Source of the DNA: an uncultured Desulfobacteraceae bacterium
Lineage (GTDB): Bacteria > Desulfobacterota > Desulfobacteria > Desulfobacterales > Desulfatirhabdiaceae
Direction: 5' to 3'
Length of the DNA: 64,000 nucleotides
NCBI GenBank assembly: GCA_903839535.1
Contig: CAIMCT010000153.1
Span: 1 to 64,000 of the forward strand
Position numbers and translations under genes: made by a program. Of the stretch, positions 43,187 to 51,270 are shown in pieces (the stretch's first letter is position 1; every line of letters starts with the position of its first letter). The notes beneath the pieces are model-generated. The model made no database searches, had not been told where the DNA came from, and saw only the letters and a list, made by a program, of their open reading frames with translations.

Positions 43187-43960
43187 ATGCTGACGGTCTC
43201 TGATATCCACACCTATTACGGGAATATCCATGCTCTCAAGGGGATATCGCTTCAGGTACGGAGCGGGGAGATGGTTGCTCTGATCGGCGCCAATGGTGCC
43301 GGAAAAAGTACGCTTGTTCATACCATCTGCGGCCTTATACGGCCGGAAAAAGGCACCATCATGTTTCAGGGAGCCGCCATCCATGGGCTATTGCCCGAAT
43401 CTATTGTTGAACGCGGAATAGCAGTTGTGCCGGAAGGCAGGCATGTTTTTTCGACCCTGTCCGTGGAAGTGAACCTGCAGATGGGGGGCTTTGTCCATAG
43501 AAGAAACAGCAGCCAGATTCAGGAAGACATCCACTGGATGTTTGACATCTTTCCCATTTTGCGTCAAAGACGGCTTCAACTTGCTGGAACCCTCAGCGGC
43601 GGAGAGCAGCAGATGCTGGCCATCAGTCGGGCGCTGATGTCCAGGCCACAGCTTCTCATCCTTGATGAACCATCCATGGGTCTTGCTCCGCTGGTGATCA
43701 AGGAGATATTTCGCATTATCCTGGATCTGAAAGAGAAAGGTAAAACGATCCTGCTCATCGAACAGAACGCCAGGGCTGCACTCCAGATTGCCGACAGGGG
43801 ATATGTTCTTGAAACCGGAAGAGTGGCTCTCGAAGGGGAGAGTGCAATGCTCCTTGAACACAAGGATGTGCAGCGGGCTTATCTGGGTCAGAAAGGCCAT
43901 CTTTCCACGGTTCCGTTCGCCGCAAAGGCGCAAAAAAGACAACGCTCTTGTGGCGGCTAA
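43187..43960 (+). CDS. livF: Branched-chain-type ABC transporter ATPase, LivF family, with repeat-derived tail
   Basis: Second ATPase, 257 aa. Walker A is GANGAGKST, signature LSGGEQQ, Walker B LILDEPSMGL, switch His replaced by Gln in IEQNA as is usual in LivF. The family normally ends soon after VQRAYLG. Here the frame runs into a palindromic element at 43916, whose 5' arm encodes the last 14 residues, FAAKAQKRQRSCGG, and the stop. The native end was therefore probably replaced by the insertion. Confidence 0.92.
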   Translation: MLTVSDIHTYYGNIHALKGISLQVRSGEMVALIGANGAGKSTLVHTICGLIRPEKGTIMFQGAAIHGLLPESIVERGIAVVPEGRHVFSTLSVEVNLQMGGFVHRRNSSQIQEDIHWMFDIFPILRQRRLQLAGTLSGGEQQMLAISRALMSRPQLLILDEPSMGLAPLVIKEIFRIILDLKEKGKTILLIEQNARAALQIADRGYVLETGRVALEGESAMLLEHKDVQRAYLGQKGHLSTVPFAAKAQKRQRSCGG

Positions 43961-44005
43961 TTTCATTGAATATTTTCTTTGCGATCTTTGCGCCTTTGCG
44001 GCGAA
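43916..44005. repeat. Inverted-repeat element C (GCAAAGGCGC arms)
   Basis: Perfect 19-base arms TTCGCCGCAAAGGCGCAAA (43916-43934) and its complement at 43987-44005 flank a core nearly identical to that inside 46868-47034. It overlaps the 3' end of livF. The right flank (44011-44036) resembles the right end of element B. Confidence 0.85.
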
Positions 44006-44100: not shown

Positions 44101-44748
44101 TCAGCAAGCAGTCATGTCAACAGGCAGTATGATGAGCAGTTCCCGGTGTTGCGAATTGGCGGACTGGGTAGCCTTCAGGTAGCTAAGCAGGTCAATGGCG
44201 CGGCCATCTGTTACCGGAACATCGACAGGAGAAAAAATAACGGCGGTGCCTTCCTGTTGAGGTCGAAGGGTAAGGGTAATTTCTTTTTCCGTACCTGCTC
44301 TTTCAAGGATTTCTTTGATGTACAACCAGATAAGATTTTCAAGATAAAACATATGGGTTGTTACGCAAATCGTTTGTGGAGGCGGTTTAAAGATCAGCGT
44401 GACGCACTTCATGGCGGCAAGCCTGGAAGATAGCGCAACGATCAGCGCCATAGTTTCTCCGAGATCTATACATTTCACTATCTCATCGGTGCTGTGAGCA
44501 AAACGGTTCATATTTCGGATAATATCGTCAGCACGCTGAATCTGCTTGCCGATGTTGGCGGCTAAACTTTTCAGTTTGGCAGGATCAAGGGGCAGCCCTT
44601 TTCCCGCCATGAAAGACAGATCTTCCAGTAGCCCCGCGTTTTCATTGATGATGGCCAGGGCGTTTTTTAGTTCGTGCGAAACGGATGCCGATATGGACCC
44701 AAAACAGTGAAGGCCGCATGCTCCAATGGATTCCTGATAATCGCTCAT
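44101..44748 (-). CDS. Histidine-kinase-like phosphotransfer protein lacking ATP-binding motifs
   Basis: A 215-aa protein with no membrane helix. An H-box SVSHELKNALAIINENAGLL (about 23-42) closely resembles HEINNPLAIINEKAGLI of the sensor kinase at 45100-46851. The region after it aligns loosely with a HATPase fold, but the N-box asparagine and the G-boxes are missing (YLENLIWLYIKEIL in place of the N-box). It may pass phosphate without autokinase activity, as Spo0B does, or act as a decoy. It overlaps the response regulator upstream by 4 bases, so the two are co-translated. Confidence 0.75.
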   Translation of the reverse strand: MSDYQESIGACGLHCFGSISASVSHELKNALAIINENAGLLEDLSFMAGKGLPLDPAKLKSLAANIGKQIQRADDIIRNMNRFAHSTDEIVKCIDLGETMALIVALSSRLAAMKCVTLIFKPPPQTICVTTHMFYLENLIWLYIKEILERAGTEKEITLTLRPQQEGTAVIFSPVDVPVTDGRAIDLLSYLKATQSANSQHRELLIILPVDMTAC

Positions 44749-45119
44749 TTTCCGTCTCCTTGTTGTTGCATCACCTCATTCATTTTTTCAAGCAGGGACT
44801 CGATTTTTACCGGCTTGACCAGATAAAAATCCTTGCCGGCTTCTGCAGTCCCGATATTAAAATCATCTTCAGAACCATGCCCGGTCAGGAAGATGAACTT
44901 CATAGCCGGGCGCAAAACCTGAAGTCTTTTTTTCAGCTCCAAGCCGCTGATTTTGGGCATTTTGACATCAAGAATAGCCAAATCAAAGGACTCGGTTTCA
45001 ATCAGTTCCAGGGCTGCCGTGCTGCTTGTGACCCAATTGGCATGGATCCCTCTGAAAGCCAGGCGTTCTGCCAGTGTTGAAACCAATTGCTCTTCATCAT
45101 CAACCAGCAATACGCGCAT
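44745..45119 (-). CDS. Single-domain response regulator (CheY-like)
   Basis: A 124-aa receiver domain alone. The acidic pocket is Asp7-Asp8, the phosphoacceptor Asp51 (ILDVKMP), Thr in FLTGHG and Lys in LVKPV. No output domain follows, so it must signal by protein contact or phosphotransfer. It overlaps the sensor kinase by 20 bases and the kinase-like protein by 4, forming a three-gene unit read from 46851 down to 44101. Confidence 0.93.
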   Translation of the reverse strand: MRVLLVDDEEQLVSTLAERLAFRGIHANWVTSSTAALELIETESFDLAILDVKMPKISGLELKKRLQVLRPAMKFIFLTGHGSEDDFNIGTAEAGKDFYLVKPVKIESLLEKMNEVMQQQGDGK

Positions 45120-46867: not shown

Positions 46868-47034
46868 TATACTGTACGCGGGCATAAACTACACTTTATC
46901 AATTCACAGCAAAGACGCAAAGGACGCAAAGAAGACAACGCTCTTGTGGCGGCTAATTTCATTGAATATTTTCTTTGCGATCTTTGCGATCTTTGCGGTG
47001 AACAAAAACTCAGTCATTGACCGCTAAAAGTATA
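46868..47034. repeat. Element B with element C nested inside
   Basis: Outer ends TATACTGTACGCGGGCAT (46868) and CATTGACCGCTAAAAGTATA (to 47034) match element B at 61388-61456 in reverse orientation. Between them, about 46905-47005, lies a C-type palindrome with GCAAAGACGCAAAGG and CTTTGCGATCTTTGCGG arms and the same core as 43916-44005. Confidence 0.8.
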
Positions 47035-47112: not shown

Positions 47113-48342
47113 TTAGGCACCGGTTTTTTTCTTCCGTGTTTGAATTTTTTCATTGGCTTTTTTCAAGGTGGCGCTCAGAACATCTATGTCAACAGGTTTC
47201 TGCAGGTAGGCAAAGGCTCCCAGGTTCATGCAGGTTTCCCTGTCCGTTTCCGAACCATGTCCGGTAAGGATAATGACTTCAATTCCGGGCTGAGTTTCCT
47301 TAACCCTTCGAAGGACTTCGATGCCGTCTATGCCAGGCATTTTGAGATCCAGAATCATCACCTCGGGTTCTTCCTCATGAACCAGTTTAAGTGCTGATTC
47401 TCCGTCAAACGCTACGACAGAGCCCATGTCCCGAAGGATCAGGCGTTCGGACAGGGTTTGAACAAATTCCCGTTCGTCATCTACGAGCAATACTTTAGAA
47501 GGGACTTCAAAATCAAATTTTCGATAAATATCAGACTGATGAAAGCCCTTCCCCACGCAGGTCTCTATAGTTTTTACGCCTGGAACAATTCCGGCAATGG
47601 ATTTTAGCTCCTGTTCCAGTCGGCTTAGCATCAGCACATTCTTGTTGATTGTCAGGGTAACTGCGCCGCTTGCAGCGCTGACGCCCACCTGATGGCCTTC
47701 GTTGGCCAGGGCGACTTCCACCTGAGCGGAAAGGAGGAAATCATCGACGGTTTTACGAGAATTTTCAGTCTTTCTAAGCACATCCTTGTTCAGATTGTTC
47801 AAAATCAGTTGAATGGCATCGTTCGTATTGGTTTTGTTCATGGGCAGGATCATGTCGTAAAGAACAGAATCCCACGGATCAGCCAGATTGAATAAGGTGT
47901 TGATCCAGCTCGCGCAGTCTTCATCGTGACGGTGTATCCATTTTGCTGCTTCTTTTTCTGATAATCCCTCGGCTTTTGCAGCCAGGGCAACCCTGAAACC
48001 CATGTCTGCAATAAGACATATCCGCAGAACATGACTGATCGCTTTGGGTATCAAATGTCCGGAAAAACCAGATAGCAACAGATTATCATCTGTCAGTTTT
48101 TCAGCCAGCGCCAGCTTTAGATAGGCAATCGAACGTTCTTTTTCATGCGTAAACTTATTGAATATCGATGTTCGAGATACAAAGGCGCGGCTGATTTTGG
48201 ATGCATCTATTCCCGAAAGTCTTGCTGCATCGTTTGTAAGTTCGCTGTCTGTAACCGGTTTATATCCGGTATGAGTGATAAGTTCCTGAAGAACGACATC
48301 TTCATTGCAGAACGTACCTGGGAAAATCGTAATTATTGGCAT
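47113..48342 (-). CDS. Nucleotide-kinase-like / BON-like / receiver fusion protein
   Basis: A 409-aa cytoplasmic protein with three parts. Residues about 1-190 resemble the cytidylate-kinase-like family (MPIITIFPGTFCNED at a degenerate P-loop position, then helical sequence). Residues about 205-275 look like a BON domain (VEVALANEGHQVGVSAASG...TL...VPGVKTIET). Residues 282-409 are a receiver domain with the acidic pair in LLVDDE, phospho-Asp332 in ILDLKMP, LTGHG and KPVD. Kinase activity is doubtful because the P-loop lysine is not evident. It may be a phosphorylation-controlled sensor. It lies upstream of, and on the same strand as, the kinase cluster. Confidence 0.7.
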   Translation of the reverse strand: MPIITIFPGTFCNEDVVLQELITHTGYKPVTDSELTNDAARLSGIDASKISRAFVSRTSIFNKFTHEKERSIAYLKLALAEKLTDDNLLLSGFSGHLIPKAISHVLRICLIADMGFRVALAAKAEGLSEKEAAKWIHRHDEDCASWINTLFNLADPWDSVLYDMILPMNKTNTNDAIQLILNNLNKDVLRKTENSRKTVDDFLLSAQVEVALANEGHQVGVSAASGAVTLTINKNVLMLSRLEQELKSIAGIVPGVKTIETCVGKGFHQSDIYRKFDFEVPSKVLLVDDEREFVQTLSERLILRDMGSVVAFDGESALKLVHEEEPEVMILDLKMPGIDGIEVLRRVKETQPGIEVIILTGHGSETDRETCMNLGAFAYLQKPVDIDVLSATLKKANEKIQTRKKKTGA

Positions 48343-48403
48343 TTAATACCCCTTATCATTTGAATTATGAATTATGAATTGTGAATTATGAGATAATGTG
48401 AAT

Positions 48404-48513
48404 CCCCGAATTGCATAAGTATTGGCCATTATTCCCATGCAATTCCACCAGTCTTTGCCATTGCTACAAATGTCGCTAAACTCAAATGTGGCCAATACTT
48501 ATGCAATTCGGGG
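48404..48513. repeat. MITE-like element D with 25-base inverted ends
   Basis: Left end CCCCGAATTGCATAAGTATT... (48404-48428) and right end (48489-48513) are perfect complements over 25 bases. The element is 110 bases, AT-rich inside and non-coding. Both flanks read AAT, which fits a 3-base target duplication. Just upstream, 48360-48390 is a short tandem repeat of TGAATTA-like units. Confidence 0.85.
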
Positions 48514-48537
48514 AATTATACTTTTTTACGCCGGCAA

Positions 48538-50661
48538 TCAATTCAGGTTGCAGACCGTTAAAGGGCACGTTGGTTCATCGCCATCCCTGTGTGTGGGTTC
48601 ATAAATGGCGTGAATGGCTTTTTCCATTGTCGGGAATAGGTGATCCGCGCCTATTTTTGCAGTCAGGTGGGTACGGCTAAGCACTTTCATGACCACTTCA
48701 TTCACCCCGCTCAGGGAAATGTCCAATCCTGCGCTGCGGATTCTGTCTATCAGTAAAGATAGCGTTTCTTCCCCTGATGCGTCAATATCATTAATGCCAT
48801 TGGAGACAATTAAAATGTGTTTGAGTGTTTCCCTGCTAAGCATCAGTTCAGTAATCTGATCATCCAGATAGCTGGAATTGGCGAAAAACAGGGGTCCGTC
48901 AAACCGGATCAGGGAAATATATTTACATTCATTCAAGCCGTGAGTCGTAACACACCGGAGCGCATCATCTTCGTCTCTGGCAAGGGATGCTACGTTTGGC
49001 CTCATGCTTTTGTAGAGAAAAACCATCAGGGAGAGGGTAACACCCACCATAATCCCTTTATCCAGATGCGGTGCAAACCACAGGGTGCAGATAAAGGAAA
49101 TGATGGAAATGGCCCCGTCATATTTTTGCGCTTTCCAGGCATGGACAAAACCGGATATATTTATCAGGCCAATCACGGCCAACATGATGACAGCAGCCAG
49201 AACAGACTGAGGAAGATGATAGAGCAAAGGAGTAAAGAACAGCAGGGCGATTACCACAGCAATGCTGGAAAAGACACTGGAAAGTCCGGATACTGCGCCT
49301 GCCTGAAGATTTACGGCGGACCTGGAAAATGAACCCGATGTCGGATAGCTTTTTCCGATTGCCCCCAGGATATTGGCCAGCCCCTGACCGATGAGTTCCT
49401 GATTGGGATCCAGTCTCTGGCCGGTTTTTCCGGCCATGGCTTTTGCGATGGAAATGGCTTCCATAAATCCCAGAAGGGAAATAATGGCCGCATAAGGAAA
49501 TAGTTGGACGATAATATTCAGGCGAATGGTTGGAATGGTAAACGCAGGAAGTCCACTGGGAACCATCCCGACAACTTCACCGCCACCAATCATTCGAATT
49601 TTATCTAATTTCAGCGGCGAATTTCCCAAACGGATACGCCATATCCGCCCATCGGTTTTTACACCTTGCTGCAAGTTGTCTTTGGGTAAAAATTTCAGGG
49701 AGCCGTCTGTCTGTTCAACGCCGACAAATAAAAAATTACGGATTTCTTCCCGATAAATCTGCACGTCATAATTGATCAGATCGCTTTTGGTGGAAAGCAT
49801 TTTATCCTGATGTTCAGCTTCAAGGGTACCCAGCAGATCATGTCTGTGTTTGGCATCTTCGATTTGTTTATTGAATTCAGTCCGCTTTTCAGCGATGGGG
49901 GGCAGGGAATTGACAGCGGAATTGAATTTGTCCACCATTTCAAGGGCTCTTTTGGAATTGATGGCTGTGATATTTGCGGTAATGTCATGCTCGAAATTCA
50001 AGGCCCATGAAAGGACTGTGGTAATGACGACGGCCACCAGAACATTGGGAATTTTCGGCACCATCCGTTTCAGTCCATACATGATTGCGAATGCCAGAAC
50101 ACCCATGGCCAAGGTAGGCCAGTGGGTGTAATGAACGGCTGCTTGTACAACGTTAATGATGGTTTCATAATGATGGGGGGCATTGTCAACGTTCACGCCA
50201 AACATTTTTGAAAGCTGTGAAGTTGCAATGATAATGGCGGCGGCATTGGTAAAACCGTTAACCACCGGATGGGAAAGAAAATTGACCACTAGGCCAAGCC
50301 TGAGAACTCCGAGGCTTAGCTGAAAAACGCCCACCATCAGCGCCAGCAAAATCGCATAGACAATGTAGCCTTCACTTCCGGCAGTGGCCAGTGGTGCCAG
50401 AGACGCCGAAGTCATCAGGGAGACCACCGCAACTGGTCCGGTTGCAAGCTGACGGCTGGAACCAAAAAGAGAGGCGATCATGGGTGGGAGAAATGAAGCA
50501 TACAGACCATAGTAAGGCGGCAGACCGGCAAGCTGCGCATAAGCCATGGATTGAGGGATCAATACGAGCGCCACTGTCAACCCGGAAAGCGCATCAATTC
50601 TGAGGTCTGATACAGTGTAGTTTTTAAACCAGATCAAAAACGGGAAAAATCGTTTATACAT
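48538..50661 (-). CDS. SulP family anion permease with STAS domain and a soluble insertion
   Basis: Inner-membrane SLC26/SulP transporter, probably for sulfate, bicarbonate or another anion. ATG at 50661 follows AGGTGGAAGG; a GTG at 50670 would overlap the tetR stop. It has 707 aa: QSMAYAQLAGLPPYYGLYASF in the first helices, the GTGIP-like MVPSGLPAF segment, and a C-terminal STAS domain with DIDASGEETL (phosphorylatable Ser position). About 125 hydrophilic, coiled-coil-prone residues (about 233-357) are inserted in mid-membrane domain. Downstream of and probably co-transcribed with tetR. Confidence 0.9.
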   Translation of the reverse strand: MYKRFFPFLIWFKNYTVSDLRIDALSGLTVALVLIPQSMAYAQLAGLPPYYGLYASFLPPMIASLFGSSRQLATGPVAVVSLMTSASLAPLATAGSEGYIVYAILLALMVGVFQLSLGVLRLGLVVNFLSHPVVNGFTNAAAIIIATSQLSKMFGVNVDNAPHHYETIINVVQAAVHYTHWPTLAMGVLAFAIMYGLKRMVPKIPNVLVAVVITTVLSWALNFEHDITANITAINSKRALEMVDKFNSAVNSLPPIAEKRTEFNKQIEDAKHRHDLLGTLEAEHQDKMLSTKSDLINYDVQIYREEIRNFLFVGVEQTDGSLKFLPKDNLQQGVKTDGRIWRIRLGNSPLKLDKIRMIGGGEVVGMVPSGLPAFTIPTIRLNIIVQLFPYAAIISLLGFMEAISIAKAMAGKTGQRLDPNQELIGQGLANILGAIGKSYPTSGSFSRSAVNLQAGAVSGLSSVFSSIAVVIALLFFTPLLYHLPQSVLAAVIMLAVIGLINISGFVHAWKAQKYDGAISIISFICTLWFAPHLDKGIMVGVTLSLMVFLYKSMRPNVASLARDEDDALRCVTTHGLNECKYISLIRFDGPLFFANSSYLDDQITELMLSRETLKHILIVSNGINDIDASGEETLSLLIDRIRSAGLDISLSGVNEVVMKVLSRTHLTAKIGADHLFPTMEKAIHAIYEPTHRDGDEPTCPLTVCNLN

Positions 50662-50670
50662 GCCTTCCAC

Positions 50671-51270
50671 CTATCCTTTAATGGGGTTATTTTCAAGCAT
50701 CCTCCTGCAGGATGCAATCAGTTCATTAAACAGCGCGCCAGCGTCATAAAGGTTATAGAGTTTAAAACGCACCAACCCATCCACCATAGTAAAAACAATC
50801 AAAGCGGTTTTTCTGGCAGGCATGGGACCGATGGATCCATCGGCCTGGCCGGACACTATGGCATGCTCAAAAATATCCACAAAGCAGTTGTAAATGGACT
50901 CCAAATGCTCCCGGCAAACCGGATTAACTTCCGCAAGTTCGTAAGGATATCTGCGGTGAAGCAGCAAAAATAAATCTTCTTTTAGCCCGGCCAGATAGAG
51001 ATAAAAAGATATTGCACCTTCCATCATCTCAATGCCGGTTTCAAATTTTCTGTTCGCGGTATAACTGTTAAATTCGGACAGAATGTCTTCTTTTGCAGTT
51101 TTTAATATTTCCAGAAAAATGCCCTGTTTGGTTTTGAAATGATAAAAAATCGTGCCTTCAGCCGCACCGGTGGTTTTTGACAGTTCGGCCATTGAGGTGT
51201 CTTTGAATCCTTTTCTGGCGAAAAGCTGCATTGCCACTCGAAGAATAATCTCTTTTTTTTTCATCGGCAT
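50671..51270 (-). CDS. TetR family transcriptional regulator
   Basis: A 199-aa repressor-type protein. The N-terminal helix-turn-helix is RVAMQLFARKGFKDTSMAEL...GAAEGTIFYHFKTKQGI (about 10-55), and a variable ligand-binding helical domain follows. It precedes the SulP gene, with only a few bases between the tetR stop and the permease start. A perfect palindrome at 51287-51300, 17 bases upstream of its start, is the likely operator, which implies autoregulation together with sulP. Confidence 0.93.
   Translation of the reverse strand: MPMKKKEIILRVAMQLFARKGFKDTSMAELSKTTGAAEGTIFYHFKTKQGIFLEILKTAKEDILSEFNSYTANRKFETGIEMMEGAISFYLYLAGLKEDLFLLLHRRYPYELAEVNPVCREHLESIYNCFVDIFEHAIVSGQADGSIGPMPARKTALIVFTMVDGLVRFKLYNLYDAGALFNELIASCRRMLENNPIKG

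Follow-up and report, generated by a model that had tools for sequence, protein, structure and literature searches.

Dissimilatory sulfate reduction is one of the major processes in anoxic sediments and begins with sulfate uptake. The transporters responsible for this uptake are mostly uncharacterised (PMC5840216), and SulP group Ci, which holds putative sulfate transporters of sulfate reducers, was described in a study (Marietou et al., PMC5840216) whose main text makes no mention of response regulators, histidine kinases or two-component systems. Among phosphorelay proteins, known phosphotransferases of the histidine-kinase-derived type include ChpT, Spo0B and PhyT (PMC3433190, PMC5898713). 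The Spo0F-Spo0B-Spo0A, CckA-ChpT-CtrA and SdrG-PhyT-PhyR relays each combine a kinase and an output receiver with a dimeric kinase-derived protein that lacks autokinase motifs, and two of the three also contain a lone receiver. Here we describe a cassette with a comparable set of parts in a 64,000-nucleotide stretch of DNA from an uncultured Desulfobacteraceae bacterium (the window; GCA_903839535.1, contig CAIMCT010000153.1), in which a pseudo-cytidylate-kinase, a BON domain and a receiver are joined in one protein (CK-BON-REC). No description of such a protein was found in the literature searched, where 'cytidylate kinase-like' and 'response regulator' never occurred together.

Domain architecture of the CK-BON-REC protein

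The gene and its domains are located as follows:
47113-48342, minus strand: CK-BON-REC gene, 409 aa from an ATG start, with pseudo-cytidylate-kinase, BON and receiver domains
47797-48342, minus strand: Cytidylate_kin2-like domain, residues 1-182 (PF13189, 3.3e-17; motif comparison)
47554-47766, minus strand: BON domain, residues 193-263 (hhalign; Pfam BON in 13/29 orthologues; modelled topology)
47155-47499, minus strand: receiver domain, residues 282-396 (PF00072, 3.5e-27; phospho-acceptor D332, plus D288, D289, T360 and K382)

An earlier note, made from the sequence alone, had read this gene as a fusion of a nucleotide-kinase-like, a BON-like and a receiver domain, and Pfam searches, comparison with BON profiles and the AlphaFold2 topology bear it out. 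The kinase-like fold that it proposed for the N-terminus is supported by a Cytidylate_kin2 match (PF13189, residues 3-169, E-value 3.3e-17) of 63.7 bits against a cut-off of 28, while Response_reg matched residues 284-393 (3.5e-27); both families were present in 37/37 aligned orthologues. The AlphaFold2 model (pLDDT 89.7, pTM 0.85) shows the kinase fold with good confidence. As Foldseek matches of the full model were swamped by receivers, the fold assignment relies on Pfam and on the closest PDB sequences, 3fdi and 3hdt, both uncharacterised. No DNA-binding domain was found in the protein.

Pfam BON stayed below threshold in the window protein itself. A profile built from true BON domains of related genomes nevertheless matched the alignment of residues 188-268 (hhalign probability 93.8, E-value 1.7e-7), and Pfam BON matched 13 of 29 orthologous segments (E-values up to 1, best 5.2e-5). 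The modelled elements (helix 193-214, strands 220-224 and 227-232, helix 239-251, strand 258-263) follow the alpha-beta-beta-alpha-beta order given for the BON topology of DolP (PMC7806268), so the BON-like segment had been recognised correctly. It had also been called unusual for a cytoplasmic protein, which is wrong, given that Kbp and CBS-CBS-BON proteins exist (PMC7806268, PMC9481166). CK-BON-REC differs from the BON-domain proteins DolP, OsmY, Kbp and CBS-BON in having a single BON domain between a pseudokinase and a receiver. This arrangement is absent from the table of 12 main architectures in PMC7806268, a paper that is indexed as mentioning PF13189 once and may thus pair BON with this family.

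Motifs of the kinase part were counted in 101 non-redundant fused orthologues. The P-loop was kept in none of them (0/101), its place being taken by a [SN]Gx[FY]C-type motif (PGTFC in the window protein), so that the degeneracy noticed earlier in one protein extends to the whole set. Three PF13189 subfamilies were distinguished in these genomes. The short proteins (about 205-230 aa) have a GSGG-type P-loop, and the kinase-BON proteins (about 265-300 aa) mostly carry RGSxSxGK. In the third, the fused form, the GRG motif and the LID arginine pair seen in the short proteins have disappeared as well. The N-terminal 170 residues of CK-BON-REC score well above the family cut-off, and the short and kinase-BON paralogues co-occur in the same genomes, but the fused protein lacks the P-loop, GRG and LID arginines and has gained BON and receiver domains. 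Catalysis by the kinase part is unlikely from these motifs, and with all three gone nucleotide binding may be lost too. F61, N62, F64, T65, E67, E69, H104, R117, W146 and D163 are strongly kept, which points to selection on the domain for something else.

The N-terminal part could still bind or phosphorylate a nucleotide as a sensor or enzyme gated by the receiver, given its clear PF13189 homology and confidently modelled fold. We consider this quite improbable, since the P-loop is lost in 101/101 orthologues together with the GRG motif and LID arginine pair, and binding would need another site; the 'nucleotide sensor' suggested in the earlier note is accordingly doubtful on sequence grounds. 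In the receiver, D288, D289, D332, T360 and K382 are found in 100-101 of the 101 orthologues, and this conservation of at least 99% agrees with phosphorylation as the likely means of control. Overall, that first interpretation held for the fusion, the fold, the P-loop, the BON segment and phosphorylation as the probable means of control, and failed on the unusual cytoplasmic BON. It did not take in the neighbouring SulP gene and candidate phosphorelay cassette, the unfused kinase-BON relatives next to transporters, or how widely the protein is conserved in sulfate reducers.

A same-order genome encodes a cytidylate-kinase-like protein (L140:895-1701) whose GSGG P-loop is intact and whose C-terminal part gives a Pfam BON match; it is a possible intermediate.

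Conservation among sulfate reducers

A search for the same architecture, suggested in the earlier note, covered 58 genomes, mainly of the same order, and returned full-length orthologues (37-90% identity) in most of them. This conservation led us to reject chance, a frame error and a recent misassembly joining separate genes as explanations. A scan of named genomes gave 261 relatives; the best 80 of these were labelled as Desulfobacteraceae, Desulfobacterales and other Deltaproteobacteria, among them Desulfonema magnum and strain NaphS2, apart from one labelled Nitrospira, perhaps through a binning error. Across the phylum, the fused form was present in 36 of 297 genomes, as counted from listed long open frames. 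The sulfate reduction gene dsrA was found in 33/36 genomes with the fusion vs. 111/261 without it (Fisher p about 1e-8, uncorrected for phylogeny), and two of the three fusion genomes lacking it are assemblies < 70% complete. The window's own genome contains dsrA. All fused proteins formed one clade (SH-like support 0.89), most simply explained by a single fusion.

The SulP cassette and its candidate phosphorelay

In the window, the cassette runs in the order TetR, SulP, CK-BON-REC, dCache histidine kinase, lone receiver and HisKA-only protein, all on the minus strand. The genes around CK-BON-REC are:
50671-51270, minus strand: TetR-family regulator, first cassette gene; upstream of SulP in 48/59 loci
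48538-50670, minus strand: SulP anion transporter, 710 aa, with STAS domain, PYYGLY motif and an insertion of ~130 residues
45100-46851, minus strand: membrane histidine kinase with dCache sensor, HisKA and intact HATPase
44745-45119, minus strand: single-domain receiver (Spo0F-like), overlapping the end of the kinase gene
44101-44748, minus strand: histidine-kinase-derived protein without ATP motifs, with H25; candidate Spo0B/ChpT-like phosphotransferase (HPt-like)

Neighbourhoods were counted with profiles in the best 80 of the 261 loci, with denominators that vary by gene. A SulP gene (~710 aa) lies directly upstream of CK-BON-REC in 74/77 loci (median gap 23 bp) and a histidine kinase directly downstream in 59/67, while the receiver and HPt-like protein are in place in 45/51. 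Some loci have an incomplete cassette, and a number of divergent fused genes stand beside a PAS-sigma54 activator, a NifX-like protein and DASS transporters, or have no transporter close by. Four sister cassettes (L065, L066, L067 and L069) combine a PAS-sigma54 activator and a NifX-like protein with kinase and receiver or HPt-like genes; L067 has SLC13 transporters too and L069 is without a CK-BON-REC gene.

The window SulP agrees with group Ci in its length of about 710 aa, insertion, STAS domain and PXYGLY motif (PMC5840216), a comparison of features rather than a tree, and the organisms are of the same kind. Judged by these features, its substrate is probably sulfate. SulP proteins also carry bicarbonate and dicarboxylates. 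The insertion, at about residues 230-365 in the membrane domain, is hydrophilic and partly coiled-coil-looking.

Two gaps are enlarged in the window. The one between SulP and CK-BON-REC measures 195 bp vs. 18-137 bp in seven relatives; a MITE-like element (48403-48514; 26-bp perfect inverted repeat around a 60-bp centre) lies between the two genes and has a partial copy elsewhere in the genome. A 69-nt direct repeat (43924-43992 and 46920-46988, 96%) flanks the kinase, receiver and HPt-like genes, its second copy being situated in the gap between CK-BON-REC and the kinase (261 bp vs. 26-108 bp in relatives).

In 28 homologues of the HPt-like protein H25 and the H-box were invariant, and the G1/G2 boxes (DxGxG, GxGxG) were absent from 28/28. 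It was modelled as a DHp with a degenerate catalytic domain (pLDDT 93.5), for which Foldseek returned histidine kinases and kinase-derived proteins (LvrB, DivL). The lone and the fused receiver both keep their active-site residues and are 42% identical to each other, which is compatible with shared partners. The cassette holds the components of a Spo0F/Spo0B-type phosphorelay, in which the final receiver would sit on a pseudokinase, with the order of transfer deduced from the parts; the degenerate kinase-like protein could also be a phosphatase, or a heterodimer partner of the kinase.

In a shorter route, the CK-BON-REC receiver would take its phosphoryl group straight from the histidine kinase, with the lone receiver and the ATP-less protein as a phosphate sink or phosphatase branch. 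The H-box region of the HPt-like protein is close to that of the cassette kinase, and with receivers also similar the kinase could dock either of them; moreover, the receiver and HPt pair is not in place in 6/51 loci. We nevertheless regard this direct route as rather unlikely, as the pair is present in the other 45, the lone receiver gene overlaps both its kinase and HPt-like neighbours in the window, and the list of parts equals that of the Spo0F/Spo0B relay.

Candidate transporter partners and comparison with known regulators

Unfused kinase-BON genes are also associated with transporters. DASS, TauE, SulP or Na-H-exchanger genes were located within 1.4 kb of 40/77 of them, nearly all on the same strand, and about half had no transporter nearby. 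The short BON-less relatives were rejected as transporter partners (0/30 vs. 40/77, p about 5e-8). Some of these loci had supplied the search seeds, so the search was repeated as a plain Pfam scan of held-out loci, where the same-strand neighbours of 55 kinase-BON genes included DASS/CitMHS (8), lone receivers (8), TauE (3) and SulP (1). In a control scan no such transporter was among the 25 commonest families, and a receiver was found in 1/37. Eight loci contain a DASS gene, a kinase-BON gene, a diverged second kinase-BON gene and then mostly a lone receiver gene; this arrangement is the unfused counterpart of the fused protein and a second conserved cassette.

The position of the CK-BON-REC gene beside a probable sulfate transporter and a signalling relay suggests that it may control the uptake of an anion, e.g., sulfate. 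Gene neighbourhood is linkage, not contact, and we lean, cautiously, towards CK-BON-REC as a phosphorelay output that acts on the adjacent SulP, and neither on DNA nor as a nucleotide kinase. The dCache histidine kinase would sense an outside signal and pass a phosphoryl group to the lone receiver (44745-45119), from which it would move to His25 in the histidine-kinase-derived protein without ATP motifs (44101-44748) and on to Asp332 of the CK-BON-REC receiver. Phosphorylation of Asp332 would then alter how the pseudokinase-BON part engages the transporter, at its STAS domain or the adjoining membrane, and transport would be tuned. The domains, the loss of kinase motifs, the intact receiver, the conserved gene order and the repeated occurrence of kinase-BON genes beside unrelated anion transporters are observations; the order of phosphotransfer, a contact with SulP, the sulfate substrate and the sign of any effect are inferences.

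Another target, such as gene expression or TetR, might be regulated instead, the place behind SulP reflecting shared regulation. Such a target would fit those divergent cassettes in which the place of SulP is taken by a PAS-sigma54 activator and a NifX-like protein. We take it to be unlikely, since kinase-BON modules stand beside three unrelated anion-transporter families and the protein has no DNA-binding domain. Returning to action on the transporter, a broader proposal, possible rather than probable, is that kinase-BON proteins form a new class of subunits that regulate transport in sulfate reducers, attached to anion transporters of the SulP, DASS and TauE types, and whose SulP branch acquired the final phosphorelay receiver and directly controls sulfate uptake. 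The conserved cassette names concrete genes linking a probable sulfate transporter with a sensor kinase, a candidate phosphorelay and an output that has no DNA-binding domain. If the proposal is true, a pseudokinase-BON output is added to those of response regulators, and a role is suggested for a family so far annotated only as cytidylate kinase-like.

Compared with the Spo0A, CtrA and PhyR relays, the output here is a pseudokinase-BON part, neither a DNA-binding nor a sigma-mimic domain, and unlike in those three the candidate relay genes share one cassette with a transporter. SbtB and PII-type regulators of SbtA and AmtB resemble CK-BON-REC as read here: they are small cytoplasmic proteins whose genes accompany that of an anion or ammonium transporter, and they act on this transporter. 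Their fold is unrelated to that of CK-BON-REC, and the switch expected in CK-BON-REC is phosphorylation, not nucleotide binding.
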